Virus record (IMG/VR): IMGVR_UViG_3300013103_000012
Coordinates: 1 to 51,571 of that record
Reading direction: 5' to 3' (one strand)
DNA length: 51,571 nt
From: a virus
The position numbers were made by a program, and so were the translations under genes. A model generated the notes under the pieces. That model was not told where the DNA came from. It did no database searches and saw nothing but the letters and a program-made list of their open reading frames with translations. Shown here piece after piece: positions 489 through 26,077 of the stretch. Within the stretch, counting starts at the first letter, position 1. The number at the start of each line of letters is the position of its first letter.

Positions 489-641
489 TACACGCTAGCT
501 CAGTCCGTTAGAGCGTCTCAGCCAAGCCCTTAGCTCAGTCGGTTAGAGCTTTGTCCGATTAAGACAGAGGCCCCAGGTTCGAATCCTGGAGGGCTTAACA
601 TAAAGAGAAGGTCGGTGGTTAAAATCCACCGCGTGTAACCA
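489..641 (+). tRNA. Outer tRNA split by an inserted tRNA (halves 489-523 and 601-641)
   Basis: The 5' half has acceptor strand TACACGC (489-495), TA, and a D-arm GCTC/GAGC (498-514). The 3' half has a 5-nt variable loop (609-613), T-arm GGTGG-TTAAAAT-CCACC (614-630), acceptor GCGTGTA (631-637), A and an encoded CCA (639-641). The two acceptor strands pair perfectly over 7 bp, and TCTC (516-519) pairs with GAGA (605-608) as an anticodon stem. The two halves therefore belong to one tRNA, interrupted in the anticodon loop by a complete second tRNA (524-600). The anticodon cannot be read without knowing the splice points; CAT at 599-601 is one possibility. The T-loop has A where C56 is usual. Confidence 0.6.
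524..600 (+). tRNA. Inner tRNA nested inside the outer tRNA, atypical anticodon loop
   Basis: A complete cloverleaf: acceptor AAGCCCT/AGGGCTT (7 of 7 pairs), TA, D-arm GCTC/GAGC with GG in the loop, anticodon stem TTGTC/GACAG, a 5-nt variable loop, and T-arm CCAGG-TTCGAAT-CCTGG. The 7-nt anticodon loop is CGATTAA, so position 33 is G instead of the near-universal U, and the formal anticodon is AUU. The 3' end is AACA, with no encoded CCA, so a CCA-adding enzyme (one is encoded at 15448) would be needed. It could be functional, a pseudo-tRNA, or a structural insert in the outer tRNA. Confidence 0.65.
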
Positions 642-10296: not shown

Positions 10297-10857
10297 ATGA
10301 AAGACGCTAAAGAAAAACTGCGGATTGCTGCTGACATTAGACGCCATAATAATTTTGTTGCCACCGAGATGGTCAATGAATTTGCAAAGGCTACTCCACT
10401 TAGGGTGAGACATACTCTTTACATGTCCCACATTAAAAAGATTGATACTAATAATGTATGGCTTAAGGAGTACTTAGTAAAGACTAATGGAAGGTACACT
10501 AAAGATGCTTCAGGTAACTGGATAGATAAGTCTTATTCAAGATCTCTCTACAAGATACCCACATTTGAGCAGTATTGTAAACGCGATTTCCGTGCTTACA
10601 TTTGCCAACAACTAGCAAGAACAGAGTACGAGTATCTTTTCTCCGACCTCACCCCTTCTGAAATTGGAAGGTTACTGAATATGGGCAAGGCTCATACTAG
10701 CAAGACATTAAAGGGAGTTATTAAGAAGTTGCAGACTCCGTCTGCTTCTAAGAATTATAATGAACTTAAAGACACTGACATTGCCTTGTCGGCAATAACT
10801 CAAGACGTACATACTGTTAATCAGTATATGATGGACTTCACACCTCATGGAGACTAA
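10297..10857 (+). CDS. Hypothetical helical protein, possible DNA-binding
   Basis: 186 residues, basic, mostly helical. The segment LTPSEIGRLLNMGKAHTSKTLKGVIKKL (about residues 120-147) has the spacing of a helix-turn-helix with a recognition helix, so DNA binding is plausible. Starts after AAAAGGATATTC, overlaps thyX at its end. No family assigned. Confidence 0.65.
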   Translation: MKDAKEKLRIAADIRRHNNFVATEMVNEFAKATPLRVRHTLYMSHIKKIDTNNVWLKEYLVKTNGRYTKDASGNWIDKSYSRSLYKIPTFEQYCKRDFRAYICQQLARTEYEYLFSDLTPSEIGRLLNMGKAHTSKTLKGVIKKLQTPSASKNYNELKDTDIALSAITQDVHTVNQYMMDFTPHGD

Positions 10858-11449
10858 ATTGGATATAAAATTATTACACCACACACCCTTAGACTTTGTA
10901 AACTCGGGTATACGGATGTGTTGGAACTCAGAAGCTAGGTCAGATAATAATGGCCCAATAGACCAAGGTCTGAATGTCCGGATTGCCAACAAGATGAAAC
11001 ACTCTTCTGTATTAAGACATTCTTTGTATGTGTTCAGGATTACTGCCTCTACAAAGACCCTTCTTGCCTTCACAAGACATAAGGCCGGAGTTGACTTTTC
11101 TGTACAATCTACACGATATACTACATCTAAAAGAGCCGATGCTCTTACATTTACACAGACGCCTAACGAGTCTATAAATAAGTCTCTAGAGGTTATTATG
11201 GACTTGGTTCAAGGCCATATTGCTGCAGGTCATTCTGATGATGACATTGCTATGCTTCTTCCACAGGCTTATGATTACACGTGGCAGGTGTCAATGAATG
11301 CACAAGCTATTCAACACTTCCTGTCACTTCGTACTGCCCCATCTGCGCACTATGACATAAGAGCGGTTGCAAATGGTATGTACTCAGTTCTTCCTGATGA
11401 CCACAAGTACTTATTTAAGGACTCTCTACATGTTACAGACACTGATTAA
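10847..11449 (+). CDS. thyX: FAD-dependent thymidylate synthase ThyX
   Basis: 200 residues. The ThyX signature is visible as TRHKAGVDFSVQSTRYT, the RHR-type motif in the 15-residue form known in several ThyX enzymes (Lys replaces the third-position Arg). ThyX makes dTMP from dUMP using methylene-tetrahydrofolate, FAD and NADPH. Other conserved surroundings (SVLRHSLYVFRI; ALTFTQ) fit. It overlaps both neighbours. A phage NAD kinase at 16678 could help to supply NADP(H). Confidence 0.88.
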   Translation: METKLDIKLLHHTPLDFVNSGIRMCWNSEARSDNNGPIDQGLNVRIANKMKHSSVLRHSLYVFRITASTKTLLAFTRHKAGVDFSVQSTRYTTSKRADALTFTQTPNESINKSLEVIMDLVQGHIAAGHSDDDIAMLLPQAYDYTWQVSMNAQAIQHFLSLRTAPSAHYDIRAVANGMYSVLPDDHKYLFKDSLHVTDTD

Positions 11450-12452
11450 GAAGTTCGAAGAAGAGAACGACTGCAAGGTCGTATACTTGACGAAGTCAGG
11501 TTCGACCCTCTACGGAACGAACACTCCCGCTTCAGATGTGGACTATCGCGGTGTATACATTCCGAATAAAAGGGATGTACTTCTCAAGAGAGATCTGCCG
11601 TTATACTCATACTCTACAGGTGGTAAAGACTCTAAGAATACAAAAGACGATATAGATTTTCATTTGGATTCTATACACACTTGGTTCAAACTTCTTAAGA
11701 AGGGTGAGACGGGATCATTAGACTTACTATTCTCTATGTTTAGAGAGGATACGATTGTTCTACAGGACACAGTCTTTCTGAATCTTATTAAGGATAACTA
11801 CAAGTCTTTCTATGGTAAGAACTTACAGGCCTTTGTGGGCTACTGTGTTGGGCAGGCGAGACAGTCAGGGATTAAAGGTACTCGTTATGGTGAGCTTAAG
11901 AGCTTCTTGAAAGTTCTTAATTCTGATAAATATATTCAAGGTGCACTTGACCAGAGGTTGGATGCTCTATTACTTCCTTCAGATGTAAAGAAGTTCAAAT
12001 ACATTAACTTCGTTATGGCCCCTGGTCCACGTTCAAATCGCAAACAAGAAGATATACTCTACCTAGATGTTCTAGGTAAGAAGTATGCACTTCATTCGAC
12101 ATCTCTTGCTCGCCTTATTGAAAAGCTTACAGAGATGGAGGCTTCATACGGTTCAAGGGCTAAAGAGGTTACAGAAGGTATTTGTTACAAAAGTCTGGGA
12201 CATTCCTTGAGGGTCATACTCGAGGTGAAGGAACTTCTTGAGACTAACTTCATTAAGTTCCCACTCTCTCAAAGGCAGTACATTCTAGACATAAGGGCTG
12301 GAAAGGTCGATGAGACTGTGATACTGAATACGATCGAACACTTGATAGAAGAGGTTGATTCTCTATTAGAGACTACGGATATACAAGAGTCTTCGGACAC
12401 AGAGAAAGTAGATGAGATCTACTTACACTTACTTGATTTAAAGGAGAAATAA
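11430..12452 (+). CDS. RlaP-type nucleotidyltransferase (RNA repair)
   Basis: 340 residues from the ATG at 11430 (AAGGA seven bases upstream). It has a Pol-beta-type nucleotidyltransferase signature SGSTLYGTNTPASDVDYRGVY: the GS loop plus the D-x-D metal pair. This arrangement matches the RlaP/DUF4269-like 'predicted nucleotidyltransferase' family, which is often encoded beside RNA ligases in RNA repair operons. Here an RNA ligase gene follows with a one-base overlap. Likely cytoplasmic end-modification of broken RNA; substrate unknown. Confidence 0.8.
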   Translation: MLQTLIKKFEEENDCKVVYLTKSGSTLYGTNTPASDVDYRGVYIPNKRDVLLKRDLPLYSYSTGGKDSKNTKDDIDFHLDSIHTWFKLLKKGETGSLDLLFSMFREDTIVLQDTVFLNLIKDNYKSFYGKNLQAFVGYCVGQARQSGIKGTRYGELKSFLKVLNSDKYIQGALDQRLDALLLPSDVKKFKYINFVMAPGPRSNRKQEDILYLDVLGKKYALHSTSLARLIEKLTEMEASYGSRAKEVTEGICYKSLGHSLRVILEVKELLETNFIKFPLSQRQYILDIRAGKVDETVILNTIEHLIEEVDSLLETTDIQESSDTEKVDEIYLHLLDLKEK

Positions 12453-13573
12453 TGAGAAAATTGGTGACAATTAAAAAGATTGATAAATTAATTCCTATCC
12501 CTAAGAAGGATAGAATAGTTCTGGCTGTAATTGGTGGCTGGTCGGTGATTGTTAAGAAGGATGAGTTCGTTGTTAATGATCTTTGTGTATTCTTCGAGAT
12601 TGACAGTTTCTTACCTGTGGCTGATATGTATGAGTTCTTAGGTAAACCTACTACTCACCAGGATAAACTTGGACACAGATTGAGAACTATGAAGATGTCT
12701 GGGGCTGTTTCACAGGGACTGGCACTACCTTTAAATATGCTCTTCGGCAAGCCTGAAGATGTTACTGAAGGTTCAGACTGGACTGAAGAGTTTGGAGTAA
12801 TTAAATTTGATATTGATCTTACTCAACAAGGTAAGGGTGGTGGCTTGCAGGTTACTGGACAACCTAAAAGCAAATTCCCTAGTTTTTTAAGAAAGACTGA
12901 TCAAGAACGTATTCAGAACTTGCCTCATTACTTTGAGGTTCATAAGAATACATTATTTGAAGAGACACTTAAATTGGATGGATCTTCTATGACTTGTTAT
13001 AAGATTGACAACGACATTCCTTTCTGGAAAGGTTGGATCAATATGCTGGCTGTACTGGTAGGCTACAAGGATATAACAGAACCTGATGTATTTCCGTTTA
13101 ACCACTTTGGTGTGTGTTCTAGGAATCTAGAGCTTAAACGCCCTGGGTCTGAAGATAAGAAGTCTAACTTCTGGACAGCTGCCACTAATGCTGAGCTTGA
13201 AAGAGATCTGCCTACAGGTTATGCTGTACAAGGTGAAGTGCTTGCTACAAATATACAGGCTAATTATGAGAAAGTGGATTCTGTTGAATTTCACATATTC
13301 TCTGTATTCAATATTGAGACACAAGAATACTTAAATCCTACGGATGCTTCTGCATTCGTTAAGAAGTACTTACCTGACGCTACACATATTCCTATAGTGG
13401 ATACGCTGCCTATATTTGATACTTGTAAAGACTTTGATTCTTTACAAGAAAGAGTTACAGGACCTTCAATTAATTCAGATGTTAAGTCTGAAGGTAGGGT
13501 CTATAAGTCATTAGAGGGTACTATTACTTTTAAGTGCGTGTCTAATGCCTACTTGCTACAGAAAAGTAAGTAA
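12452..13573 (+). CDS. RNA ligase, Rnl5/DRB0094-like
   Basis: 373 residues. An N-terminal ~170-residue OB-like domain precedes the ligase core, as in the Deinococcus DRB0094 (Rnl5) type. Motif I is TLKLDGSSMTCYK with the lysine that becomes adenylylated; motif III is FGVCSRNLELK; a GEV segment fits motif IIIa/IV; motif V is likely LEGTITFKC near the end. It would seal nicks in RNA using ATP. It is coupled to the RlaP gene and close to a CCA-adding enzyme, so tRNA repair or tRNA splicing is the natural inference. Confidence 0.85.
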   Translation: MRKLVTIKKIDKLIPIPKKDRIVLAVIGGWSVIVKKDEFVVNDLCVFFEIDSFLPVADMYEFLGKPTTHQDKLGHRLRTMKMSGAVSQGLALPLNMLFGKPEDVTEGSDWTEEFGVIKFDIDLTQQGKGGGLQVTGQPKSKFPSFLRKTDQERIQNLPHYFEVHKNTLFEETLKLDGSSMTCYKIDNDIPFWKGWINMLAVLVGYKDITEPDVFPFNHFGVCSRNLELKRPGSEDKKSNFWTAATNAELERDLPTGYAVQGEVLATNIQANYEKVDSVEFHIFSVFNIETQEYLNPTDASAFVKKYLPDATHIPIVDTLPIFDTCKDFDSLQERVTGPSINSDVKSEGRVYKSLEGTITFKCVSNAYLLQKSK

Positions 13574-13591
13574 GACTTGCTTGATTTATAG

Positions 13592-13609
13592 AGCACACTT
13601 CGGTGTGCT
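13592..13609 (+). terminator. UUCG-capped hairpin, probable terminator
   Basis: AGCACAC-TTCG-GTGTGCT, seven base pairs with the same stem core and tetraloop as the hairpin at 1427. No U-tract follows. It lies between the RNA ligase stop and the next ribosome-binding site. Confidence 0.6.
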
Positions 13610-13636
13610 GAACTAAGTTAAATAAAAGGATACACA

Positions 13637-13813
13637 ATGAACATTCTAGACTACGACGATTGGTGTGAGCAGACAGGTTACGAACTCTTCCAAGAGGTCG
13701 ACTACTCATACTCAAAGACAAATATTCACACACACTTGCAAGAGGCTTACGAGTCATATGTTGCAGATATGACTGACAAGATTCATAAAGACATAAAGGC
13801 TGACAGATGTTAA
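13637..13813 (+). CDS. 58-residue hypothetical protein
   Basis: The ATG follows AAAAGGATACACA and the stop overlaps the start of the phosphoesterase gene. The acidic product begins MNILDYDDWCEQTGYELF and has a helical C-terminus. Coding is supported by a good ribosome-binding site and coupling. No function recognised. Confidence 0.65.
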   Translation: MNILDYDDWCEQTGYELFQEVDYSYSKTNIHTHLQEAYESYVADMTDKIHKDIKADRC

Positions 13814-14460
13814 AGGTGGTATGTGTGAGTGACACTCATGAGCTACATGCGCAGTTAGATCTTACGATCTATCCAGATTGTGATATATTACTACATGCTG
13901 GGGATTTCTCCGGTACAGGGACTAAAACTGAGACTATTAAATTCTTTGAGTGGTTTAATAGACAACCATTCAAGCATAAGATATTTATAAATGGGAATCA
14001 TGATTGGCTCGGAGAGAGAGACCCCGAAGCATTCGCTAACTTAGTAGCTAACTATCCTGACATTACACACCTACAAGGTACTGGTATAGTTGTCGAGGGT
14101 ATTAAGATACAGGGTTTTGCGGATACACCTGAGTTCTGTAACTGGGCGTTCAATCGTACACAAGAAGAACTAACTGAGATATGGAAAGGCATTGACGAAG
14201 ACACTGACGTTTTATTATGTCATGGCCCACCACACTATATATTAGATGAAGTTAACAACAACTGGTCGGCTACTTGTAATGTAGGAGACCCTGCACTAGC
14301 TTTAGCTGTATCCAAGCTTGACCTTAAAGCTTGTGTATTCGGTCACATACATACTCAAGGTGGTAAGCAAGTGGAGATAGATGGTACATTATTTGTTAAT
14401 GCTGCCGTACTTAATGACGGTTACCAATTAGCCTATGAGCCTCAGCTTATAGAGGTTTAA
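13807..14460 (+). CDS. Calcineurin-like metallophosphoesterase
   Basis: 217 residues with all the family motifs in order: VSDTHE, HAGDFSG, NGNHDW, CHGPP and GHIH. These coordinate two metals and hydrolyse phosphomono- or diesters. The short form without extra domains resembles stand-alone phage and bacterial phosphodiesterases; substrates may include 2',3'-cyclic ends or nucleotides, and the RNA-repair context makes RNA ends attractive, but this is inference. Confidence 0.88.
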   Translation: MLKVVCVSDTHELHAQLDLTIYPDCDILLHAGDFSGTGTKTETIKFFEWFNRQPFKHKIFINGNHDWLGERDPEAFANLVANYPDITHLQGTGIVVEGIKIQGFADTPEFCNWAFNRTQEELTEIWKGIDEDTDVLLCHGPPHYILDEVNNNWSATCNVGDPALALAVSKLDLKACVFGHIHTQGGKQVEIDGTLFVNAAVLNDGYQLAYEPQLIEV

Positions 14461-14469
14461 GGTTAATTA

Positions 14470-14478
14470 TGGTATACT
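14470..14478 (+). promoter_or_regulatory. Extended -10 promoter before HNH gene
   Basis: TGGTATACT, a TG-n-TATACT extended -10 element six bases before the start codon of the nuclease gene. The same TATACT motif stands before the nuclease genes at 44194 and 47333. No good -35 hexamer. Confidence 0.4.
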
Positions 14479-14483
14479 AACGT

Positions 14484-15170
14484 ATGACTAGATTAGAGAT
14501 AGAAACTGAGTTTTTTACAGTAAAAGGAACACTTAATAACCATAGAGTAAAGAAGAGTGGGCTAAGTCCCCAAACTATTTACAACATGTACTACGAAGTA
14601 GTCACTCCTAAATGCACTTGCGGACAGGAGCGTACGTTTTACACATTCCCTAAAGGCTATAGGTTAACCTGTAGCTCACGGATATGTGCAGCTAATGCCA
14701 AAGAAGGAATGCTGAAACGTAAAGCGACAAACATTGCTAAATATGGTGTAGAAGAATTTCCAACAAGTGTTAGATTCAGAGAAGCCTGCCTACAAAACTT
14801 AGGAGCTGTAAATCCTAGCTTTCTCCAGACATGTTTGGATAAAGGTAGGGATACGAAGATTGCCAAAGGTAGTCAGATTCCTGATGAAGATAGGACTGAG
14901 TGGGAGCTTTATAAGAAACTAGTTTTAGCAGAGACAAGAAAGAACTGCACTAATCTGAAGAATATACACCTTAGAGGTCATATAAAAAATGACCCAGATG
15001 CATACCACCTAGACCATAAAGTGAGTGTATACTATGGATTTATTAATAACATACTCCCTACAGTAATAGGAAATACTCTTAATCTTGAGATGATACCTGC
15101 ACGTACTAACATGCAGAAACGTACTAAATGCTCTGCAACACTAGAGGACATTACAGTACAGGCCAACTAA
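14484..15170 (+). CDS. Putative HNH homing endonuclease
   Basis: 228 residues. An N-terminal zinc-ribbon-like part (CTCGQ ... CSSRIC) is followed by a basic region and a C-terminal HNH-like segment (YHLDHKVSVYYGFINNILP, then IGNTLNLEMIPARTN), the layout of free-standing phage homing nucleases. It interrupts the operon between the phosphoesterase and the next gene, has its own promoter-like TATACT and lacks a clear ribosome-binding site, all typical of mobile nuclease genes. Confidence 0.75.
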   Translation: MTRLEIETEFFTVKGTLNNHRVKKSGLSPQTIYNMYYEVVTPKCTCGQERTFYTFPKGYRLTCSSRICAANAKEGMLKRKATNIAKYGVEEFPTSVRFREACLQNLGAVNPSFLQTCLDKGRDTKIAKGSQIPDEDRTEWELYKKLVLAETRKNCTNLKNIHLRGHIKNDPDAYHLDHKVSVYYGFINNILPTVIGNTLNLEMIPARTNMQKRTKCSATLEDITVQAN

Positions 15171-15204
15171 CCCACTAATCGTTATAGAAATTTAAAGGAT
15201 GTAC

Positions 15205-15438
15205 ATGATTAAAATACACACTGCTGTTAATGGCTCTCCGAACTGTAGTGAAGAGATTTACTGGATACATCCTTCAGAGATCTTTAGAGTCTACAAGGAA
15301 GTAGGAAAACCCTACACACATAGAATACAAGTGGCAAAACATGATTATAATATATTCATTAAGATTATGACTCCTGACTTACAGGAGTATTTGGACAACT
15401 CGCACAGGAGTTACAATCCTCTTGGCATCACTTTATAA
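15205..15438 (+). CDS. Hypothetical protein
   Basis: 77 residues from the ATG at 15205; the ATG at 15199 overlaps the AAAGGA ribosome-binding site and is less likely. Small mixed alpha/beta protein without known motifs. It precedes the CCA-adding enzyme gene. Confidence 0.6.
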   Translation: MIKIHTAVNGSPNCSEEIYWIHPSEIFRVYKEVGKPYTHRIQVAKHDYNIFIKIMTPDLQEYLDNSHRSYNPLGITL

Positions 15439-15447
15439 AGGATACAC

Positions 15448-16677
15448 ATGAATACATATTTAGTTGGAGGATCAGTTCGAGACTCCTTGATAAATGACAT
15501 ACACGGGACAGACATTCAGTCTAATGACAAAGACTACTGCGTTGTAGGTTCATCGATGAATGAGATGATCTCTCTTGGATACACATTTGTAGGTAAGGAT
15601 TTCCCTGTATTTCTACACCCAGAGACAAAAGATGAATACGCTCTTGCTAGACGCGAGAGATCCACTGGTGGAGGTCATTCAGACTTCATTACTGAGTTAA
15701 GTGACGTTACACTTGACGAGGACTTGTTACGCCGGGATTTGAGTGTGAACTCAATCGCATATGACGAAGACTCTGGAGATTACATTGATCCACACGGTGG
15801 TATAGATGATATTCGTAAGAAGGTATTAAGACATACTTCAGATGCTTTCAGAGAGGACCCTGTAAGGGTACTTCGATTGGCAAGATTCAGAGCTACTCTA
15901 GGTACAGATTGGAAGATCGCCCACGCTACAAAGGCTTTATGTTACGATATGCGAGTTACTCTTACTTCACTTACTCCAGAACGAATCTGGAAAGAGGTCG
16001 AGAAGGCTTTACTTCTTCCGAACTCACGAGTATTCTTTGAGACTCTTCTTGAGTTGAATATACTTGGATACGTATTCCCTGTGCTAGAGCCTATGGTTCT
16101 ATGCAAGGAGGGTAGTAAACACCACAGAGAGTCCTCTGTATTTGAACACACTATGATGATGCTGGACGTTGTCCATGATAAGTCACTAGAAATTAAGACT
16201 GCTGTCTTATTCCACGATGTGGCTAAGCCACACTGTTACAAATACTTTGGTTCGTCTGCAGGACATGCAAGTCCTGTATACTTTGCTCCACTTCTGCCTA
16301 ACTGGCTTCCGAAGAAGTTGCTAGGTACTACGCTATTCTTAGTGGAGAATCATACGAAGATTTACAAGACACATGAGATGACTGCAAAGACTATTGCTAC
16401 ATTCCTTGCGAAGTACAAGACTTCACAAATGCTTGAGGATCAGCTTACGCTTGCACATGCGGACGATGCTGGAAGGCTTGCAGATCCTGGAGTTTCAAAA
16501 GAGATTGAGTACACTCTTATAAGAGATACTTGGACGAAGATAAAGGCTTACTCTCCTTGGGAATGGATAAAGGACGAACTTGTTCGTAATAGGACTCCGA
16601 GTGGCGAGGCTATAAGACAGAATGTACACTCTTACAATATACAAGTTGTGAAAGAGATATTCAAAAAGGATAAATAG
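15448..16677 (+). CDS. cca: CCA-adding tRNA nucleotidyltransferase (class II, with HD domain)
   Basis: 409 residues, close in order and length to E. coli Cca. It starts NTYLVGGSVRDSL, has DFPVFLHPETKDEYALARRER, the RRDLSVNSIA motif and EDPVRVLRLARF, then an HD phosphohydrolase domain (VFEHTMMM..., LFHDVAKP). It adds or repairs the 3' CCA of tRNAs; the HD domain in E. coli gives phosphatase and phosphodiesterase activity. Several phage tRNAs here lack an encoded CCA, so the enzyme is directly useful. With RNA ligase and RlaP it forms an RNA-repair set. Confidence 0.92.
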   Translation: MNTYLVGGSVRDSLINDIHGTDIQSNDKDYCVVGSSMNEMISLGYTFVGKDFPVFLHPETKDEYALARRERSTGGGHSDFITELSDVTLDEDLLRRDLSVNSIAYDEDSGDYIDPHGGIDDIRKKVLRHTSDAFREDPVRVLRLARFRATLGTDWKIAHATKALCYDMRVTLTSLTPERIWKEVEKALLLPNSRVFFETLLELNILGYVFPVLEPMVLCKEGSKHHRESSVFEHTMMMLDVVHDKSLEIKTAVLFHDVAKPHCYKYFGSSAGHASPVYFAPLLPNWLPKKLLGTTLFLVENHTKIYKTHEMTAKTIATFLAKYKTSQMLEDQLTLAHADDAGRLADPGVSKEIEYTLIRDTWTKIKAYSPWEWIKDELVRNRTPSGEAIRQNVHSYNIQVVKEIFKKDK

Positions 16678-17382
16678 ATGAAATTACTTTACACAGATGC
16701 TTACGATTTTAGAAAGACAATTCACGAGGATACAGACGCGATTTATGTCAAAGGGGGCGATGGGACGTTACTAACGGCAATTAATAAGTTCGCACACCTA
16801 GGCCTTCCGTTCTTTGGAATTGCTGGAGGTACGTTGAATTTCCTTATGAATAATAGGGTTGGACCTGTTGATGGAGGGATTCTTCCAGATGCTACACACT
16901 TCGAAGTACAGACTATGGATATTAATGTCACGTCCAATAGACAAGATATAGGAGGTGGGAACTTCGTTAGTCTTGTCTCTACATACAATGCTTTCAATGA
17001 CATTGTCCTCGGGAACTTTAATGTATTCACAGAGTTTACATGTACACACGAGGATGACCAATTAGGTACGTTCAAAGGCTGTGGTGTGGTAGTTTCTACT
17101 GCACAAGGGTCTACAGGAATAAATAGGAATAATAATGGGACAATACTTCCCCTATCTTCTCCGAACTGGTCAGTGACCGGTATGCAGACGAATAGGACAG
17201 TGAATTCTGTTATTGCTCCTACGGAACTTGTTATAGATTGCAAAGGTCGAAAGACCACAAGGATTGGTATAGACGGTTCGAATCACGAACTAGACGATGT
17301 GTCCTCTATAAAGATCACTCCGGGTAAACCCGTTACGATCATAATTAATGACGTAGATGGATTCAATAAGAGGAGACAATGA
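16678..17382 (+). CDS. nadK: NAD kinase
   Basis: 234 residues. The GGDGTLL motif and AGGTLNFL (GT-N-F type) are the NAD kinase signatures, followed by GSTGINRNNNGTILP. It phosphorylates NAD to NADP with ATP. At 234 residues it is shorter than most bacterial enzymes (~290). It lies in the same operon direction as the NMN adenylyltransferase and NAMPT genes, so the phage could run nicotinamide to NADP by itself. Confidence 0.88.
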   Translation: MKLLYTDAYDFRKTIHEDTDAIYVKGGDGTLLTAINKFAHLGLPFFGIAGGTLNFLMNNRVGPVDGGILPDATHFEVQTMDINVTSNRQDIGGGNFVSLVSTYNAFNDIVLGNFNVFTEFTCTHEDDQLGTFKGCGVVVSTAQGSTGINRNNNGTILPLSSPNWSVTGMQTNRTVNSVIAPTELVIDCKGRKTTRIGIDGSNHELDDVSSIKITPGKPVTIIINDVDGFNKRRQ

Positions 17383-17663
17383 GAATTTACAGAGCCATGT
17401 GTAAGGAAGAGATGCTACATACAGTAAAGTATAAGCGCCCTTATTTCCGTACAAGGTTTAAATGGTTCTCTCATAATCTTGATTGGATCCATTCAAAAGT
17501 CTGTGGAGGAGAGTTCAATAATTCTCAATACATGCCACTACGTTACGAGTTCATACTTGAGTTTGAGTGGGACGAGACAAGGCACGACTTTAAAAGTACT
17601 AATGAGATACAGTTCAATATTAGAAAGAACCCTAAGATACACTTCATAGGTGTTGTAAGGTAG
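17379..17663 (+). CDS. Hypothetical basic protein
   Basis: 94 residues, overlapping the NAD kinase stop by four bases with a GAGGAGACA ribosome-binding site. Rich in aromatic and basic residues (FRTRFKWFSHNLDW). No known motif. Confidence 0.65.
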   Translation: MRIYRAMCKEEMLHTVKYKRPYFRTRFKWFSHNLDWIHSKVCGGEFNNSQYMPLRYEFILEFEWDETRHDFKSTNEIQFNIRKNPKIHFIGVVR

Positions 17664-17676
17664 AAGGAGACAATAG

Positions 17677-17898
17677 ATGGGACGATTAGGTGGAGTTAAT
17701 TTAGACGACGACTGGGGCAATGCTCCTATAAGCTATGAAGAAGATTCCCTATTAGAGAGATGTAGAAGATCTGCTGCTGAAAGAACTCCTGAGAAAAGGG
17801 CACAACTGTTAGTTGATGCTAAGATACTTACTGAAGAGGGCCACTACAATCCATTCTACTTTAGGGACGAGACTGTTGCTAAGTCTAAAAGGAGGTAA
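17677..17898 (+). CDS. Hypothetical protein
   Basis: 73-residue charged protein after AGAAGGAGACA. N-terminal MGRLGGVNLDDDWG, C-terminal basic tail KSKRR. Function not recognised. Confidence 0.6.
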   Translation: MGRLGGVNLDDDWGNAPISYEEDSLLERCRRSAAERTPEKRAQLLVDAKILTEEGHYNPFYFRDETVAKSKRR

Positions 17899-17901
17899 TA
17901 G

Positions 17902-18276
17902 ATGCTACTATTTATATACGGTACACTTAAGAAGGGTATGAGCAATCACTCCGTTCTTGAGAGAACAGATGCTGAGTTTTATTTAGAGGTACAGACATTC
18001 ATGGAATATCCTATGTATGCTTCTGGACAGAACTTTCCATACTTACAAGATACACCTGGTATAGGTCACAAGATTAAGGGCGAACTCTGGGTGGTTCCAG
18101 AGAAGGATATACGAATGTTAGACTCTTTCGAGGGAGTGCCTGACTTGTACACTAGAGGTGTCATTGCTGTTACAGATGGCAGGATTGTCACGTCGGTTGA
18201 GGGCTATTTCGTGGCTAATGAACTTACAAGAGAGGACCTGTTAAAGGTTACTCTACTTACAAATTGGGAGGAATAG
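17902..18276 (+). CDS. Gamma-glutamylcyclotransferase-like (AIG2-like) protein
   Basis: 124 residues. The N-terminal FIYGTLKKGMSNH and the later LDSFEGVPDLYTR, with the conserved Glu, match the GGCT/AIG2-like fold that releases 5-oxoproline from gamma-glutamyl amines or peptides. Stand-alone phage members exist. The real substrate in infection is unknown. Confidence 0.82.
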   Translation: MLLFIYGTLKKGMSNHSVLERTDAEFYLEVQTFMEYPMYASGQNFPYLQDTPGIGHKIKGELWVVPEKDIRMLDSFEGVPDLYTRGVIAVTDGRIVTSVEGYFVANELTREDLLKVTLLTNWEE

Positions 18277-18471
18277 ATGACACGAGAAAAGGCCTTAAAT
18301 AATATAGTGGTTAAAAACCATCCCCGCTATAGCTTAATACTCCAACAGTTGGTAAACAATATATTCGACCACTTCAAACCATTAGAGAAAGAACTAGCTG
18401 AGCACAGAGAAATGATTACTTGGATGGAAGATAATTCGAACCAGAGTCTCTGTGACTACTACAATAGATAA
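18277..18471 (+). CDS. Hypothetical protein
   Basis: 64 residues starting right after the upstream stop, with GGGAGGAA as ribosome-binding site. Helical and charged; no recognised domain. Confidence 0.6.
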   Translation: MTREKALNNIVVKNHPRYSLILQQLVNNIFDHFKPLEKELAEHREMITWMEDNSNQSLCDYYNR

Positions 18472-18481
18472 AGGATAATAG

Positions 18482-18859
18482 ATGATTTCATTCACTACAT
18501 TCGCAGTCATTATGATTGCACACTTCGTTGCTGACTTTGTTATGCAGACGGATAAGATGGCTAAGGGCAAGAGTACGGGTTTCTATTGGCTTTCACAGCA
18601 CATACTTGCTTACACGCTATGGCTTGGTAGTGGGGTAGGTTACTATTACGTAATAGTCGTTTCTCCAGACCCTTATATGATTACAGGATGGATAATTCTT
18701 AATGGACTACTCCACGGATTTGTAGACTATTTCACATCGAGATGGACATCTCGTCTATGGGAAGAAGGACGAACTCACGACTTCTTTGTTGTTATTGGAT
18801 TGGATCAGACCATTCATATACTCACACTTATAGGGACTTACATCCTGATATTTAATTAA
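18482..18859 (+). CDS. Membrane protein, DUF3307-like
   Basis: 125 residues with three to four hydrophobic segments. The pattern AHFVADFVMQTDKMAKGKS, a HxxAY helix and GLLHGFVDYFTSR fits the DUF3307 family of small integral membrane proteins, which occur in phages and bacteria. Function unknown; inner membrane location expected. Confidence 0.75.
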   Translation: MISFTTFAVIMIAHFVADFVMQTDKMAKGKSTGFYWLSQHILAYTLWLGSGVGYYYVIVVSPDPYMITGWIILNGLLHGFVDYFTSRWTSRLWEEGRTHDFFVVIGLDQTIHILTLIGTYILIFN

Positions 18860-18869
18860 AGGACATAAA

Positions 18870-19052
18870 ATGATTACACCACTACTTTATATATTATCTA
18901 TTTGTATATTTGTATTAGCACTATTTCTAAACTTTGGAGGACAGATAGATTCTACTACACATTTTCAAATGAATGTATATGGTTGGCTTGTTATAATTAC
19001 TGCAATAGGCCATGAAATACTGGACAAGTTAAATGAAACCTCTAGGACGTAA
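18870..19052 (+). CDS. Small two-helix membrane protein
   Basis: 60 residues with two hydrophobic helices (about residues 3-22 and 36-49). It overlaps the NMN adenylyltransferase gene by 20 bases. It has the size and topology of a holin-like or membrane-modulating peptide, but it is far from the lysozyme, so I do not name it a holin. Confidence 0.65.
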   Translation: MITPLLYILSICIFVLALFLNFGGQIDSTTHFQMNVYGWLVIITAIGHEILDKLNETSRT

Positions 19053-19722
19053 GAAACAACAAGGCGGAGACTACAAACACAAGGTCTCAGGTGCTGATAG
19101 AAGAAGAGGTTTTATAGGCTGGTGGGAAAATGTTATAGAGCCTACAAAGGCTAGAGATAAAAGAGAGTACACTAAAGAAATAGAAGGAGAGTTAATGGAA
19201 ATAGAACAAGAACAGTGGGGAGCTTTCGTAGGCCGTATGGCTCCTATACACATAGGACACACTTACACGATCGAACACATTATAGACGACGGACTTACCC
19301 CTATTGTATTTGTAGGCTCTGCCAATAAGATAGACGACAAGAACCCTTGGAAGATTCTAGATCGAATGAAGATGGTGAACATCGTCTATCCAGGTATGAC
19401 TGTACTCTCTCTTGAGGATAAGGAATGCTGGGACGAATGGTTTGAACAATTGATAGATAGTCTACAGTCGAATGTTTGTAAAGACTTGTCACAGATTACT
19501 ATATATACTCATAATAAGCCTGACGACAGATTAGACTTTACTTTCAGAGGTATAGACTACAAGAACGAACACTATTCAAAGATGTATGAGATTGCAGGTC
19601 TTAAGACGAAGGATCTTCCTGAGTCTGATATAGACTTACATGCCACAGATATTAGAAGAGATTTAGATTCAAATGAACACAATTTACACCCTGACGTATT
19701 TTCATATTTAAAAGGCTTATAG
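19033..19722 (+). CDS. Nicotinamide-nucleotide adenylyltransferase (NMNAT)
   Basis: 229 residues. The first ~55 are a charged extension; then AFVGRMAPIHIGHTYTIEH gives the nucleotidyltransferase GxxxPxHxGH motif, and HATDIRRDL near the end corresponds to the ISSTxxR motif. It would join ATP and NMN to form NAD. Similar NadM/NadR-like enzymes occur in phages beside NAMPT. Here NAMPT (22302) and NAD kinase (16678) are within 6 kb. Confidence 0.82.
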   Translation: MKPLGRKKQQGGDYKHKVSGADRRRGFIGWWENVIEPTKARDKREYTKEIEGELMEIEQEQWGAFVGRMAPIHIGHTYTIEHIIDDGLTPIVFVGSANKIDDKNPWKILDRMKMVNIVYPGMTVLSLEDKECWDEWFEQLIDSLQSNVCKDLSQITIYTHNKPDDRLDFTFRGIDYKNEHYSKMYEIAGLKTKDLPESDIDLHATDIRRDLDSNEHNLHPDVFSYLKGL

Positions 19723-19914
19723 GTGGCAGACTGTATACACAAGGACACTTGCAGGTACTGGTTTGGAAAGACCTGTTGTCACTGCGATATAAGTGATCCA
19801 GAGTTTAATCTATACTCGAAGAAAGATACTGAGGAACAAGATGCCATAAAGGCTGCTTACAAACCGAGTCACTGGGACTTAAAGTTCACGGCTGACTATG
19901 GCAGATGCTATTAA
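19723..19914 (+). CDS. Small cysteine-rich, probable zinc-binding protein
   Basis: 63 residues from a GTG start just after the upstream stop. C-x5-C and CCHC clusters (CIHKDTCRYWFGKTCCHC) suggest zinc binding. The protein at 32062 has a similar Cys spacing (CPQRDTCYRF), so the two may be related. Confidence 0.65.
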   Translation: MADCIHKDTCRYWFGKTCCHCDISDPEFNLYSKKDTEEQDAIKAAYKPSHWDLKFTADYGRCY

Positions 19915-19921
19915 AGGATAT

Positions 19922-20098
19922 ATGATGAATAGAGAATACACAGTGCCTATGACCAAAGAAGAGATAGAACAGGCTATCAAAGAAGGTAAAAAAGTAGAAA
20001 TGAATGGGACTGCCGTAAATGGTGGGTATGGGGAGACCTGGAACACCGCTAAAGACACTACATACCCACCAGAAATATACAGAATATATAATGATTAA
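19922..20098 (+). CDS. Hypothetical protein
   Basis: 58 residues from ATG 19922 (or 19925), chosen over an upstream ATG at 19898 because AAAGGATAT lies just before it. Acidic and basic helical N-terminus, then a Gly-rich part. Function unknown. Confidence 0.6.
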   Translation: MMNREYTVPMTKEEIEQAIKEGKKVEMNGTAVNGGYGETWNTAKDTTYPPEIYRIYND

Positions 20099-20112
20099 AT
20101 AAAGGACACACA

Positions 20113-20694
20113 ATGTTAGACACGATTTACATACACTCGACAACAAAAGTTGACGAGCCTAAGTTTATAAAGCCTCCACAATTGGTTACATTCACAAGAG
20201 GTGACAAATTAGGGACTAAACAATCCTGGGAAGTGCAGGACGATCCACACGATTCAGTTCACATTCTTGTGAACAAGACTGACACTCAAGAGATCTTACT
20301 TGTTCAACAATACAGGATTCCTACGATGATCAATTCAGAGGTTACAAAGCCTGTGACTGAATGTTGCGCTGGTCTTGTAGATTCTGATTTGCTTCCTATA
20401 CAGATTGCATATGCTGAAGTTCAAGAGGAATTAGGGTACAAGGTTAGACCTAATACGATGCAGCCAATAGGTTCTATGCTTTCTTCAGTAGGGACTGTTG
20501 GGTCTATGACTTTCCAGCTCTACTGTGAGGTTACAGAGGAGGACTTTACGGGTCAAGACCTAGGTCCGGGTGAGGATATAGAGGTTTACTCTATTCCTTA
20601 TGCTGATATAAAGGACTTCTTAGAACACACTATACATACGGATCCTGTGACGAAATACCTGTTACAGTGGTTCTTGTTGAATAAGGGGATGTAG
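20113..20694 (+). CDS. NUDIX hydrolase, NDP-sugar / ADP-ribose pyrophosphatase type
   Basis: 193 residues. The Nudix region is CCAGLVDSDLL...AEVQEELGY, in which the REUxEE core is AEVQEE and the upstream glycine-glutamate part is degenerate. The surrounding layout (LLVQQYR, CAGLVD, SVGTVGSMTFQLY) is that of NUDT14/ADP-ribose pyrophosphatase enzymes, which hydrolyse UDP-sugars or ADP-ribose. In an NAD operon, ADP-ribose released by host NAD-cleaving defences is an attractive substrate. Confidence 0.8.
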   Translation: MLDTIYIHSTTKVDEPKFIKPPQLVTFTRGDKLGTKQSWEVQDDPHDSVHILVNKTDTQEILLVQQYRIPTMINSEVTKPVTECCAGLVDSDLLPIQIAYAEVQEELGYKVRPNTMQPIGSMLSSVGTVGSMTFQLYCEVTEEDFTGQDLGPGEDIEVYSIPYADIKDFLEHTIHTDPVTKYLLQWFLLNKGM

Positions 20695-21245
20695 TGAATA
20701 AAGAACTTATACTGGACAATAAAGAATGCTTCGAACATTGGCTTGCTGGTGGTCAACTACTTTACACCTACCCTGCTATTCAGGGTTGGCAACAGTGTAA
20801 AGGAGATCATAATTGGGCTATAGGGCACAATACTTACATTATCAAGGACAGGTACGTAGAATTTCGTAAAGCCTTGGCTGAAGGGAAGACTATACAGTAT
20901 AATCCTAACACACAGATGCACAATAGATGGGATAACATAATACCAGATGAAGGCACATTTACTGAGGATACAAAGAATTACCGGATCAAACCAGACGAGC
21001 CTGAGTTCAAGGTTGGTGATCATGTGGTTATGTTACGTAATAATAATATAATGAGACTATCTGAGAAAGATATATTAGGCTTTGGTGCCTTACCTTCTAG
21101 ATTAGAAGAAATAAAACTCTGGACACCATCGCCTGGTGACTATGTATGGGCATGGGGAGATAATAAGGTTCCAAGACTTATTTTATTGTTAGAACATACC
21201 ATTAACGGGGTAGGTACACTCCCTTCAGGACTCTCAAGTGATTGA
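20694..21245 (+). CDS. Hypothetical protein
   Basis: 183 residues from a GTG that overlaps the upstream stop. The first ~100 residues contain ALAEGKTIQYNPN and NYRIKPDEPEFKVGD, a pattern common in small phage proteins. No catalytic motif recognised. Confidence 0.65.
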   Translation: MNKELILDNKECFEHWLAGGQLLYTYPAIQGWQQCKGDHNWAIGHNTYIIKDRYVEFRKALAEGKTIQYNPNTQMHNRWDNIIPDEGTFTEDTKNYRIKPDEPEFKVGDHVVMLRNNNIMRLSEKDILGFGALPSRLEEIKLWTPSPGDYVWAWGDNKVPRLILLLEHTINGVGTLPSGLSSD

Positions 21246-21402
21246 GATACTTGTGTATATTGTAGTGACTATTATTGCTGCAATATATACATTGGCAATA
21301 GTGTTATTTCCAAGAAATGAGCTGAACAAAAGAGGAAAGGTATTACTGATAGGTTTACTACTATATTGGATATTGATATTTCCAAGGATACTACACGGAT
21401 GA
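21238..21402 (+). CDS. Small two-helix membrane protein
   Basis: 54 residues from GTG 21238, overlapping the upstream gene by eight bases. Hydrophobic helices at about residues 4-24 and 34-51, separated by a basic loop (PRNELNKRGK). Function unknown. Only coding composition and topology support it. Confidence 0.5.
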   Translation: MIEILVYIVVTIIAAIYTLAIVLFPRNELNKRGKVLLIGLLLYWILIFPRILHG

Positions 21403-21568
21403 GGTAGGACCTGCCATAGACAGAGTCCTCACTGCTATACACACTGAATTAAAAGAGATACTTGGAGAGGACTTTAAGATTACGGATCCAGAAGAGGATA
21501 AGATATTTGACGTTCTTCACGAGGTATTAGAGACATACTCTCTCGGAGATTACAAGAACTACAGTTAA
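21378..21568 (+). pseudogene. Short coding stretch without a start codon
   Basis: An open frame after TGA encodes about 63 residues ending VLETYSLGDYKNYS with clear amino-acid bias (EEDKIFDVLHEVLE), but has no ATG, GTG or TTG at its beginning. It overlaps the membrane protein gene in a shifted frame. It may be reached by frameshift, use a non-standard start, or be a damaged gene. Confidence 0.4.
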
Positions 21569-21579
21569 AGGAGTCACTA

Positions 21580-21990
21580 ATGGAAATTAATGATATAGTC
21601 TACCATCCATGCAATATGGACATAATACAACACAAGATTACAGGAATACGGACTTATGAAGACCACGTTCTTTACGAGGCCAAGGCTATACACCCTGTAG
21701 GTGCTTCTGGACGTATTGAGATACTCCTTTCTGAAGATAAGAAAGGCAATATCCGGTTTACAGGTCTTATAGATGATCCTGAATATGGTAATGGCTTAGG
21801 GGACTTCGTGGAAGGACTCTACTACAAGGATCAACAAAAGGCTAGACTAGTCTACAATGAGGCTCAACGAATTCTCGTATGGTCGAATATGGAAGAGAAG
21901 AGACGATCTTATGAGAATGCTAAATTCATGTATGATAAGGTTGAGAAGATTATAAACACAATAAAGGAAGAAATAGATGATAGAGAATGA
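21580..21990 (+). CDS. Hypothetical protein
   Basis: 136 residues after AAAGGAGTCACTA. Beta-rich first part (MEINDIVYHPCNMDIIQHKITGI style), helical end. Overlaps the next gene by 14 bases. No known motif. Confidence 0.65.
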   Translation: MEINDIVYHPCNMDIIQHKITGIRTYEDHVLYEAKAIHPVGASGRIEILLSEDKKGNIRFTGLIDDPEYGNGLGDFVEGLYYKDQQKARLVYNEAQRILVWSNMEEKRRSYENAKFMYDKVEKIINTIKEEIDDRE

Positions 21991-22309
21991 TTTAAAAGAT
22001 ACTCTAGAGAAGGCTTTTGTTGCTCTAGAAGGTAATAGTAAGGAGAGTATAATAGGTTTAGAGATAGATGACTTTAATATTGAGGATGGTATATGTTATA
22101 TGGATCTAGGCTATCAGGTAGATGATAGAAAAGAAGACCAGAACTTACAGTCACAGGCTATACTAGATACCGCTAATTCGGTACTTAAAGAGGCTGGATT
22201 CAAGATAGAACAAACAAGTGAGCACGCAGAGAGAATGGATGCATATCCAAATGGATACGCCTACTATACACAATGTATAGAAGTAGAAAAGGAAGAGATA
22301 AATGACTAA
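21977..22309 (+). CDS. Hypothetical acidic protein
   Basis: 110 residues, strongly acidic, overlapping both neighbours. It precedes and is coupled to NAMPT (overlap eight bases). No known domain. Confidence 0.65.
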   Translation: MIENDLKDTLEKAFVALEGNSKESIIGLEIDDFNIEDGICYMDLGYQVDDRKEDQNLQSQAILDTANSVLKEAGFKIEQTSEHAERMDAYPNGYAYYTQCIEVEKEEIND

Positions 22310-23711
22310 TATTATAAGACTGGCTGACAGTTACAAGTACTCACACGCAGGACAATACCCGGCAATGGTGTCTATGTATGACTACATGGAGTCAAGAGGT
22401 GGTAAGTACGATTCAACGGTATTCGTTGGATTACAGTACTACTTAAAAGAGTTTATATCTAACGTGCCTACTAAAGAGGACGTTATAAAGGCTGAGAGAA
22501 AGGCCGCACTACATGGAATTCCATTCGATAGAGAAGGTTGGGATTACATAGTTGAATTAGGACATATACCTGTTACGGTTAAGGCTGTTGCAGAGGGTTC
22601 AGTAATTCCTGTTAAACACGCACTAGTTACTATTGAGTCTACAGACCCAAGAGTTCCTTGGGCTGCAGGATTCTTAGAGACATTACTTATGAAGGTTTGG
22701 TATCCAACTAATATTGCTACTAAGTCTTACCACGTTAAGAAGATGCTTGAGAACTATGGTTCACCTGAGTGGGCTATGTTTGCTTACCACAATTTTGGTG
22801 ATAGAGGTTCGAGCTCAGTAGAGTCTGCCGCTATTGGTGGATATGCTCACTTGACACAGTTTATGGGAACTGATAACTTCAATTCACTATTCTTCTGTGA
22901 AGACTACTACAATGTGCCTGAGGACCAGGTTGCTGGATACTCTGTATTCGCTACAGAACACTCAAGTGTCTGTTCTCACGGTGTAGATGGTGAAGAACAG
23001 TTTGTATATGATATGCTAATGGCAAATCCAGACGCACCTATTATGTCATTTGTGGCAGATAGTTATGATGTATATAAGTTTACAGACTTCTGTACAAATC
23101 CAGAAGGTAGAATCAGAAAGTTAATAGATTCTAGACCTCATCAGAAATTTGTATTAAGACCTGACAGTGGTGAGCCTATTGAAGTTATCTCCCAAATGGT
23201 ACAGATAATGAATAATAATAATTTATTTGTTGAGATGGGAGATACTGGTAAGTTTATTGCACCCAGCTTTGGTATTCTATGGGGTGACGGTATTACACCT
23301 GAAACTATAGAGAGTATTCTTAAGTTCTTCTGCACTGAGACTGACGTACCTATGGCTGCAGAAAACTTTGTATTTGGGTCTGGTGGTGACTTAATGCAGG
23401 CTCACGACAGAGACACACAAAGATTTGCTGTTAAATGTTCATCAATTGATGTATTTAGTCAATCTACAAGTCCAGACTTTCCAGATGAGATACACTCTAT
23501 AGATGTATTTAAAGACCCTATTACTGATCCAGGTAAGGCCTCTAAAAGAGGTAAGGTTACAACTTGGTTTGATACAGAGACAAAGGAATACATTGCAGGT
23601 CATGTAGGTAAACAACCTAATATGCACTGTGTAGATGCTTTAGTGGAAGTTTTCAAAGATGGTAAGTTATTAGTTGACTACTCTTTAGAAGAGATACGAA
23701 GTAGGTCGTAA
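22302..23711 (+). CDS. nadV: Nicotinamide phosphoribosyltransferase (NAMPT)
   Basis: 469 residues, full family length. It forms NMN from nicotinamide and PRPP. Visible residues: the N-terminal DSYKYSH, TEHS (Glu and catalytic His), FVADSYDVYKF, VLRPDSGEP (Arg that contacts the phosphate) and GDGI. Phages such as KVP40 carry nadV-type genes. With the NMN adenylyltransferase at 19033 this is the two-step nicotinamide-to-NAD route known as NARP2, which counters NAD-depleting defence. Confidence 0.95.
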   Translation: MTNIIRLADSYKYSHAGQYPAMVSMYDYMESRGGKYDSTVFVGLQYYLKEFISNVPTKEDVIKAERKAALHGIPFDREGWDYIVELGHIPVTVKAVAEGSVIPVKHALVTIESTDPRVPWAAGFLETLLMKVWYPTNIATKSYHVKKMLENYGSPEWAMFAYHNFGDRGSSSVESAAIGGYAHLTQFMGTDNFNSLFFCEDYYNVPEDQVAGYSVFATEHSSVCSHGVDGEEQFVYDMLMANPDAPIMSFVADSYDVYKFTDFCTNPEGRIRKLIDSRPHQKFVLRPDSGEPIEVISQMVQIMNNNNLFVEMGDTGKFIAPSFGILWGDGITPETIESILKFFCTETDVPMAAENFVFGSGGDLMQAHDRDTQRFAVKCSSIDVFSQSTSPDFPDEIHSIDVFKDPITDPGKASKRGKVTTWFDTETKEYIAGHVGKQPNMHCVDALVEVFKDGKLLVDYSLEEIRSRS

Positions 23712-24198: not shown

Positions 24199-24570
24199 GT
24201 GAAAATAAATAAACTAGGCATTACCTTCGGTGATAATGACTTTGGAACAACCTTACGCCACTTTTTAGGGTTACTAGTTGCTTCTGGGTTCGACCCAGAT
24301 AATAACGATCTGACTAAGGAAACACTTGTCGAGCTATTTAATAAATCCGCTGGAACTATATACAATCTCGCGCAAGCCGGTATCTCTTCATGTGGGTACT
24401 CATTCGACGCTGATAACTATCTACAGATAAGTGTTAATGATGTGCAGATCAACTCGGAAGTGGATGAGTATATAGCCAAACATGGACCAAACTGTAACAG
24501 TGAATTCTTTTATGTAGACTACACACTGCACGCAGACCACCCATACGCTCATACTGTTATAACAGTCTAG
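24199..24570 (+). CDS. Hypothetical protein, last gene before the RNA locus
   Basis: 123 residues from a GTG start with a strong AAAGGAGATAATA ribosome-binding site. Acidic alpha/beta protein, no known motif. A perfect palindrome lies in its last codons (24553-24566) and the 2-kb non-coding locus begins right after its stop. Confidence 0.65.
   Translation: MKINKLGITFGDNDFGTTLRHFLGLLVASGFDPDNNDLTKETLVELFNKSAGTIYNLAQAGISSCGYSFDADNYLQISVNDVQINSEVDEYIAKHGPNCNSEFFYVDYTLHADHPYAHTVITV
24553..24566 (+). terminator. Perfect palindrome at gene end
   Basis: ACTGTTATAACAGT, a 14-base perfect palindrome straddling the end of the upstream gene. Without a U-tract it may be a weak terminator or a protein-binding site at the entry of the RNA locus. 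Confidence 0.35.
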
Positions 24571-24961
24571 CAAATTCCCTTACCTGAATAATCGAATAGT
24601 GAATGGTAAGAACTGTCAGATCTTCGATGGATCCTGGACAGTGGCGAGGAGGCTTAAGCTCAACGTACAAGTGCCCAGCGTATCCTAACGGATGGTGCTG
24701 TCTATGGTGACATAGGCGGTAGCCAATCTTGTACAAACGTCATAGTTGGATTGACATTAAACAGCCCAGACCACATACTCCAGAGTGGGGTGTGGCTACT
24801 ACATAGTATAAATGAGTCAATGGCTTGCAATTCATAGCCAATAGATTGGCCTCCGTAATCCTGCCTTCAGGGCTAAACGACCTTTCTGAACCACTTGAAA
24901 GACTCAAGGTGACTTATTGAGCATGGCAGTTGAAAGCACTGCCCAACTTAGGTTGAGGTAT

Positions 24962-25031
24962 GAAATGAATCGCCCAGCGGTAGGGCACGGGTCGCTCCTC
25001 AAGGCGTAGGTTCGAATCCTACTTCATTTCA
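24962..25031 (+). tRNA. tRNA-like element A (truncated anticodon arm)
   Basis: Acceptor AAATGAA/TTCATTT (7 bp, extendable), TC, a D-arm GCCC-AGCGGTA-GGGC very like that of glutamine tRNAs, and T-arm GTAGG-TTCGAAT-CCTAC. The anticodon region (24988-25005) is about four bases short and forms no normal 5-bp stem with a 7-nt loop. No CCA is encoded directly. It is more likely a tRNA-like domain or decayed tRNA than a decoding tRNA. Confidence 0.55.
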
Positions 25032-25391
25032 CACCTCAGTCTAACTGAACTGACGTCCCGGCCTGTGACGACACATGGGCCTGGCTTGCTGAGAAGCCTC
25101 AGTGAACTCGCCGAAGAGTCCATTAGAGTCCGTGCGTATATTCTCGGAATAATATCTAGGCATCAAAGAGTAGTGCTCACCGATGTCGAAGCCCAAGCAA
25201 CGAAGGCTTTAAATCTACGAGAGATCGTAGTATCATTTGCATACCCGTATCAAATTTGTAGTCTAGTGGGTATATTCTACATTATTAGTCGATCGCTATA
25301 ACTCCATTCACAATTATGCCTAATAAGCTTAGTGATGGTTATAAGTACCTCCCTCCTCTCAATGATGAGCAAACGGTGGTGCCTTTTCATA

Positions 25392-25509
25392 TGTCCTAAT
25401 AGCTAATTACCCCTTTGGTTAAAGCGCCTGGCAGCCTGGTGTGGGCAATACCACACTGTACTAGAGTAATTGTACGCGGGGAGATGACGTTCGAATCGTC
25501 AAAGGACAC
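25392..25509 (+). other. tRNA-like element B, interrupted
   Basis: Acceptor-like strands TGTCCT (25392-25397) and AGGACA (25503-25508) pair over 6 bp. A D-arm-like part (AGCTAATT...GGTTAAAGC) is followed by about 60 bases with two hairpins (25439-25456 and 25458-25475), then T-arm TGACG-TTCGAAT-CGTCA. No ordinary anticodon arm is visible. The same bases 25401-25425 can also be aligned with the H41/H42 region of 23S rRNA just upstream of the L11-binding domain, so both readings are kept open. Confidence 0.4.
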
Positions 25510-25517
25510 TACGGGAA

Positions 25518-25603
25518 GTTGGCTTAGAAGCAGCCAGTATGAGTGCTAATTACACACGTGCATACATCTTTTAAAGAGTAGGAAATCGGGTACTATCCAC
25601 TGG
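25518..25603 (+). other. Segment matching the 23S rRNA GTPase-associated centre (L11-binding domain)
   Basis: GTTGGCTTAGAAGCAGCCA (25518-25536) is, from memory of the E. coli sequence, identical over 19 nt to the helix-43 part of the L11-binding domain (around nt 1057-1075). It is followed, after an inserted hairpin (GTATG...CATAC, 25537-25565), by ATCTTTTAAAGA, corresponding to ATCATTTAAAGA in 23S, and later by GTACTATCCACTGG, corresponding to GTAATAGCTCACTGG. The blocks are in rRNA order. A single 19-nt match in 2 kb is far beyond chance. Confidence 0.7.
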
Positions 25604-25966
25604 GACACTAACCAACACAGTCAGACCAGTATAGATGCAATCACACCGAATACCTTTTGGCGTAACAGCACACCACAGCGCAATTGGAACTACTTTCACA
25701 TCACCGGCGCTATATAAATAGAACTGAGAAGGGCAAGTTGCATCACTTGTAGTAGTAAAAGTACATCATCGGCAATTGATAATTGCCTTCATACTGGTAC
25801 ATGAATATAACCAGAGGTAGAGCTATAGCTGGCTAAACCATAGCAACATCCACTTCTAATCTTGATATCTACAGTAAACGGTATTTCAAGTACTTTGTTA
25901 AGTAACAGTGAAAAGATGAGGACCAACACTAGTTAGTACGGATTAATCATCCGTATGTTTTTATAT

Positions 25967-26047: not shown

Positions 26048-26077
26048 AATCTTAGTGATGAGTGTACACGAAACAAA

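Follow-up and report, generated by a model that had tools for sequence, protein, structure and literature searches.

In this work we describe a compact group of four genes, encoding an RlaP-type nucleotidyltransferase, an ATP-dependent RNA ligase of the Rnl5 type, a metallophosphoesterase and a CCA-adding enzyme (Cca), which all fit in 5.3 kb of phage DNA. The DNA analysed, called here the window, is the complete IMG/VR record IMGVR_UViG_3300013103_000012 (51,571 bases), a linear piece of a larger phage genome. The locus is probably the RNA-repair part of the early/middle gene block of this phage, which would protect RNAs against host ribonucleases (RNases). An earlier note, made from the letters alone, had proposed that the set heals and seals cleaved transfer RNAs (tRNAs) in answer to anticodon-nuclease defences and that, together with aberrant tRNAs of the window, it forms a dedicated tRNA maturation system. 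Pfam and phrog matches confirm that the four genes are real and were correctly named; the first proposal survives in part and the second is not supported.

The genes lie in the order thyX, rlaP, RNA ligase, metallophosphoesterase, HNH-like open reading frame (ORF), small ORF, cca and NAD-kinase-like gene, and all convincing genes between 10.8 and 17.4 kb are carried by the + strand. The ATG of rlaP at 11430, the start assumed before, is located 20 nt within the 3' end of thyX. The rlaP stop codon overlaps the ligase ATG at 12452, so that RlaP and the ligase are likely translated together, and the coupling claimed for this pair is a fair description. A gap of 233 nt separates the ligase from the phosphoesterase, and a further 987 nt, holding the HNH-like ORF and one of 79 codons, separate the latter from cca. 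The HNH-like ORF, with the pattern LDHKxSxxxGFxN...IGNxxNL noticed by eye, is probably a mobile insertion between phosphoesterase and cca.

RlaP scores 52.7 bits against PF10127 (cut-off 23) and falls in the phrog of the T4 NrdC.11 homologues. Its catalytic GS...SDVDYRG motif, of the pol-beta GS...DxD form, is intact and, according to the alignment, common to the homologues of phiN3 and of a related record of 89 kb (G093). In the ligase an N-terminal OB fold (PF21189, residues 4-94) is followed by a C-terminal nucleotidyltransferase domain (PF09414, residues 170-359), which is the domain architecture of Rnl5 as judged from the profile matches. The only solved relatives are the Naegleria NgrRnl structures, with a full-length match to 5COT. 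The catalytic residues of NgrRnl are K170, D172, E227, E312 and K326 (PMC9931718), and the alignment places 5/5 of them in the phage enzyme, as K174, D176, E262, E347 and K361. The full length of the TIGR02306 (DRB0094) model is covered by a match of 132 bits, under the curated cut-off of 151, therefore the enzyme is filed as Rnl5-type only and not as a DRB0094 equivalog.

The phosphoesterase carries all metal-ligand motifs of the MPPED type (D-x-H, GD, GNH, H and GHxH), present as SDTH, AGDF, GNHD, CHGPP and FGHIH, and is MPPED2-like. The alignment of Cca to PRK10885 spans residues 1-406 and covers the head, RNA-binding and HD regions, which bears out its description as a full Cca; the score of 292 bits is below the equivalog cut-off of 451 bits. 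With the HD-domain motif VLFHDVAKP...GHA, recognised by eye, the enzyme is classed from its alignment as the gammaproteobacterial multifunctional type with an HD domain. The HD domain of the E. coli multifunctional CCA enzyme is a phosphohydrolase.

Table 1. Coordinates of the repair genes, their neighbours and the nested tRNA in the window
Feature	Coordinates	Strand	Evidence or remark
Outer tRNA 5' half: acceptor 5' strand, D-arm, anticodon-stem 5' side	489..523	+	
Inner tRNA, anticodon loop CGAUUAA	524..597	+	ARAGORN; Rfam tRNA 56.9 bits
Outer tRNA 3' half: anticodon-stem 3' side, variable loop, T-arm, acceptor 3' strand, encoded ACCA	598..641	+	
thyX, flavin-dependent thymidylate synthase	10847..11449	+	PF02511 E 1e-27; context only, outside the repair set
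RlaP-type pol-beta nucleotidyltransferase, 340 aa	11430..12452	+	PF10127 E 6e-14, phrog_388 E 1e-62
ATP-dependent RNA ligase, Rnl5 type, 373 aa	12452..13573	+	PF21189 E 2e-30, PF09414 E 1e-19, 5COT E 7e-57
Metallophosphoesterase, MPPED1/2 type, 217 aa	13807..14460	+	PF00149 E 7e-14, 3RL4 E 1e-26
HNH-like endonuclease-type ORF, 228 aa	14484..15170	+	phrog_5104 E 8e-14 (phrog with no assigned function); pattern judged by eye
CCA-adding enzyme (Cca), 409 aa	15448..16677	+	PF01743/PF12627, phrog_2244 E 7e-101, PRK10885 E 5e-87

From these families the following course of repair can be proposed, in which activities, substrates and the counter-defence role are all predicted from sequence. The Rnl5-type ligase would seal RNA breaks bearing 3'-OH and 5'-phosphate ends, and missing 3' nucleotides would be restored by RlaP at internal breaks and by Cca at the CCA end of tRNAs. 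Cyclic 2',3'-phosphates or 3'-phosphates may be cleared by the MPPED-type phosphoesterase, possibly with the help of the HD domain of Cca. The joint effect would be that tRNAs and other RNAs stay usable under the attack of host RNases during infection. Genes for NAMPT (22302) and a nicotinamide mononucleotide (NMN) adenylyltransferase-like protein (19033) in the same gene block support this reading, NAD+ metabolism genes being a known counter-defence theme.

The same enzyme classes and the same predicted role are known from large phages. RlaP, ATP-dependent ligases and the CCA enzyme belong to the RNA-repair complement of jumbo phages, where the distribution of RlaP mirrors that of the ligases, calcineurin-like phosphatases occur in a few phages, and the set is predicted to counter host RNases and tRNA-cutting defences (Iyer et al. 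2021, PMC7824862). In comparison with this complement, the window couples RlaP directly to the ligase and places an MPPED-type phosphoesterase and Cca in the same short segment; Rnl5 is not named among the main phage ligases in that paper. Relatives occur among the records of the phage collection (1,466 for RlaP, 317 for the ligase type, 445 for Cca and 88 for the phosphoesterase), and as the classes are already published for jumbo phages, the set adds to a known repertoire. It provides one more large phage carrying RNA ligase, RlaP and Cca, and what is distinctive here is an RlaP-ligase coupling of unusual tightness, together with a possible end-healing enzyme in the form of the MPPED-type phosphoesterase.

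The ligase has the OB-then-nucleotidyltransferase layout and the five conserved catalytic residues of the Rnl5 family (Naegleria NgrRnl; Deinococcus DraRnl, DRB0094), and is about 35-40% identical to its relatives in the phage collection. The Pnkp-Rnl1 pair of T4 is likewise a phage-encoded means of sealing 3'-OH/5'-phosphate RNA breaks; however, the window ligase is from a different family and no Pnkp-type kinase-phosphatase was found in the window. Relatives of T4 also carry an RlaP homologue, nrdC.11. The phosphoesterase shares the metal-binding motifs of MPPED1/2 (PDB 3RL3-3RL5) but differs by the His of its GHIH motif, and the 3RL4 chain is its best match; the activity assigned to it is a prediction.

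Several observations weigh against the repair reading. ATP-dependent ligases of the Rnl5 class require 3'-OH and 5'-phosphate ends, and PrrC-type anticodon nucleases produce 5'-OH and 2',3'-cyclic phosphate ends. No AAA_33 match over the cut-off, as expected of a 5'-OH polynucleotide kinase, was obtained in the window, in G093 or in a second related record of 118 kb (G092); all three are fragments, so this is a gap and not a proof of absence. Breaks with 5'-OH would thus not be sealable by these genes alone. With no kinase found, this fragment holds only part of a heal-and-seal set; the window proteins scanned also included no HAD phosphatase. The solved Rnl5 member, NgrRnl, seals nicks (PMC9931718). 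For these reasons, the missing kinase and the nick sealing, the wording that the set can heal and seal cleaved tRNAs overreaches, while the more general interpretation as an answer to host RNases agrees with the standing published view (PMC7824862) and with the intact active sites. MPPED-family enzymes hydrolyse cAMP and cGMP (PMC10547211), and RNA may therefore not be the substrate of the phosphoesterase. Conservation of the arrangement is also limited: in the 80 viral loci of the nearest ligases, relatives of RlaP, the phosphoesterase and Cca were each found within 10 kb in 1/80, and the whole four-gene set in 0/80, a count from single-query tblastn at often short-ended loci which may miss divergent or distant copies. 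A conserved four-gene order was accordingly rejected on this set.

These observations could mean that the genes are loose neighbours, with the ligase and RlaP repairing RNA, Cca maintaining CCA on host and phage tRNAs, and the phosphoesterase destroying cyclic-nucleotide alarm signals instead of acting on RNA ends. The hydrolysis of cyclic nucleotides in the MPPED family, the unconserved order, the two ORFs between phosphoesterase and cca and the NAD+ salvage genes in the same block would all suit this arrangement, which we nevertheless regard as rather unlikely, as the genes adjoin each other beyond the expectation of random placement, in three records only. In G092, which has about 20 genes in common with the window, the phosphoesterase (41% identity) lies directly behind the ligase, as a side-by-side pair, and the profile search found neither RlaP nor Cca. 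In G093 Cca comes immediately after RlaP and the ligase is found at a distance of 5.6 kb, and in all three related records RlaP and Cca are co-present or co-absent. The repair genes thus pair up repeatedly, which speaks for the repair reading, without forming a fixed operon. No near DNA matches to the window were present in the phage collection, and a single-protein scan confirmed no close relatives.

The tRNAs of the window were examined separately. The claim of a nested tRNA proved correct: the outer tRNA (489-641), with acceptor 7/7, D 4/4 and T 5/5 pairs, holds a complete inner tRNA (524-597) in its anticodon loop, and shuffled copies of the window yield 0-2 matches of any kind. The inner tRNA has no encoded CCA and no U33, and its cloverleaf is not favoured when the precursor folds freely. 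A literature search for nested phage tRNA genes found nothing, and earlier reports may exist. The 'interrupted' tRNAs placed at 24.6-26.6 kb were not confirmed, since no convincing interrupted tRNA was found in 24.57-26.59 kb. This part contains one tRNA-like element (24963-25030), which lies in a long hairpin; its anticodon arm is shortened and its acceptor stem runs on into a 22-nt inverted repeat. Isolated T-arm-like hairpins occur at 25485 and 26078. The surrounding tract 24570-26590 is about 2 kb without convincing ORFs and has G+C slightly above that of neighbouring genes. As a candidate for a known giant RNA it was rejected: Rfam gave only tRNA above threshold, no distant blastn match was obtained and the folding energy is not consistently low.

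How the nested tRNA is to be understood bears on the supposed maturation system. One explanation, to which we give an even chance and which is compatible with the repair reading, is that the nested tRNA and the other odd ones are genes in decay, one tRNA gene having recombined into another, and neither needs repair enzymes. U33 is absent from both loops of the nested pair, the anticodon arm of the third tRNA-like element is stunted, and the neighbouring tRNA at 645-720, with anticodon GCU (Ser), differs from bacterial tRNA-Ser in that its variable loop is short and its T-stem holds two mismatches. On the other hand, every acceptor, D and T helix of the nested pair, inner as well as outer, is paired throughout, which points to constraint or to a recent event.

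In a dedicated maturation route the inner tRNA would instead be excised by RNase P and RNase Z of the host (or by 3' trimming), after which the phage ligase would join the outer halves and RlaP and Cca would complete the ends. In favour of this route, the nested tRNA is confirmed with intact outer helices, Cca could add the CCA that the inner tRNA lacks, and by established enzymology the 3'-OH and 5'-phosphate ends expected from RNase P and RNase Z suit an Rnl5-class ligase without a kinase. The joined outer RNA does fold into a cloverleaf, but precise removal of the inner tRNA gives a 4-bp anticodon stem with an 11-nt loop and not a normal anticodon arm, the precursor fold noted above is unfavourable, and G092 retains the ligase-phosphoesterase pair beside canonical tRNAs only.

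The association of ligases with interrupted tRNAs was checked on viral contigs with two T-loops abnormally close, and contigs with normally spaced tandem tRNAs served as control. Interrupted tRNAs, defined by an insertion of at least 23 nt and a score of at least 43, numbered 20 in the test set and 2 in the control for equal sequence amounts, and at the looser score of 41 the shuffles gave 3 matches against 43 in real sequences. RNA_ligase over the cut-off occurred in 11/50 (22%) close-T-loop contigs and was more frequent, 19/41 (46%), in the controls; RtcB was detected in 12/50 and 6/41, and any ligase (RNA_ligase or RtcB) in 22/50 and 20/41, respectively, in fragmentary contigs, in small sets and with hosts that could supply a ligase. 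In the test set, T4-type Rnl1 was confined to contigs already positive for RNA_ligase, and among the tested contigs with a supported interrupted tRNA 4/11 had any ligase. A preferential occurrence of RNA ligase with interrupted tRNAs is therefore rejected on these sets. Phage contigs that bear tRNAs often carry an RNA ligase, with or without interruption of the tRNAs, which separates two things that the earlier note had joined. The maturation route, which none of the tests made here supported, is very improbable. In a most unlikely scenario, the intron of a tRNA spliced by the phage would be a functional tRNA in its own right, and its release by RNase P and RNase Z would create the ends the Rnl5 ligase needs to join the outer halves; we know of no description of protein-based tRNA splicing by such a route in bacteria.

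Further NAD+ metabolism genes follow the repair locus within 16678-23711: beside the NMN adenylyltransferase-like and NAMPT genes, an NAD-kinase-like gene (16678) and a Nudix gene (20113). The NMN adenylyltransferase-like, Nudix and NAMPT genes stay together in G092. Two aberrant tRNA-like genes with 6/7 acceptor pairs were noticed in G093:C1 near 61429 and 75836, one of them with a short anticodon stem and a long loop.

Other viral contigs provided observations of their own. A generic nested D-arm pattern matched only repeats and one assembly-type duplication. In L092 (6497-6695) a complete tRNA-like gene is nested at about 37/38 in the anticodon loop of a tRNA-Tyr(GUA)-like gene. In L024, L044 and L358 inserts of 65-110 nt split the anticodon loop of tRNA genes, following position 37 or thereabouts. 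They have the common motif TACAGAGTAAACTG (hairpin CAG-AGTAAA-CTG) and usually precede a tRNA-like acceptor/T-arm element whose T-loop has TTCGA. The L024 and L044 inserts gave no group I intron match at Rfam thresholds; the inserts of the three contigs are possibly an undescribed intron type. An RNA_ligase domain within a 2,837-codon open frame of the L179 contig (G073:C1:23254-23721) suggests a polyvalent phage protein. In many viral contigs (L349-L426) the hairpin ACAGAGTAAACTG..AAATC, the same as in the inserts, stands a short way upstream of apparent start codons; it may therefore serve phages generally as a signal for RNA processing or regulation.

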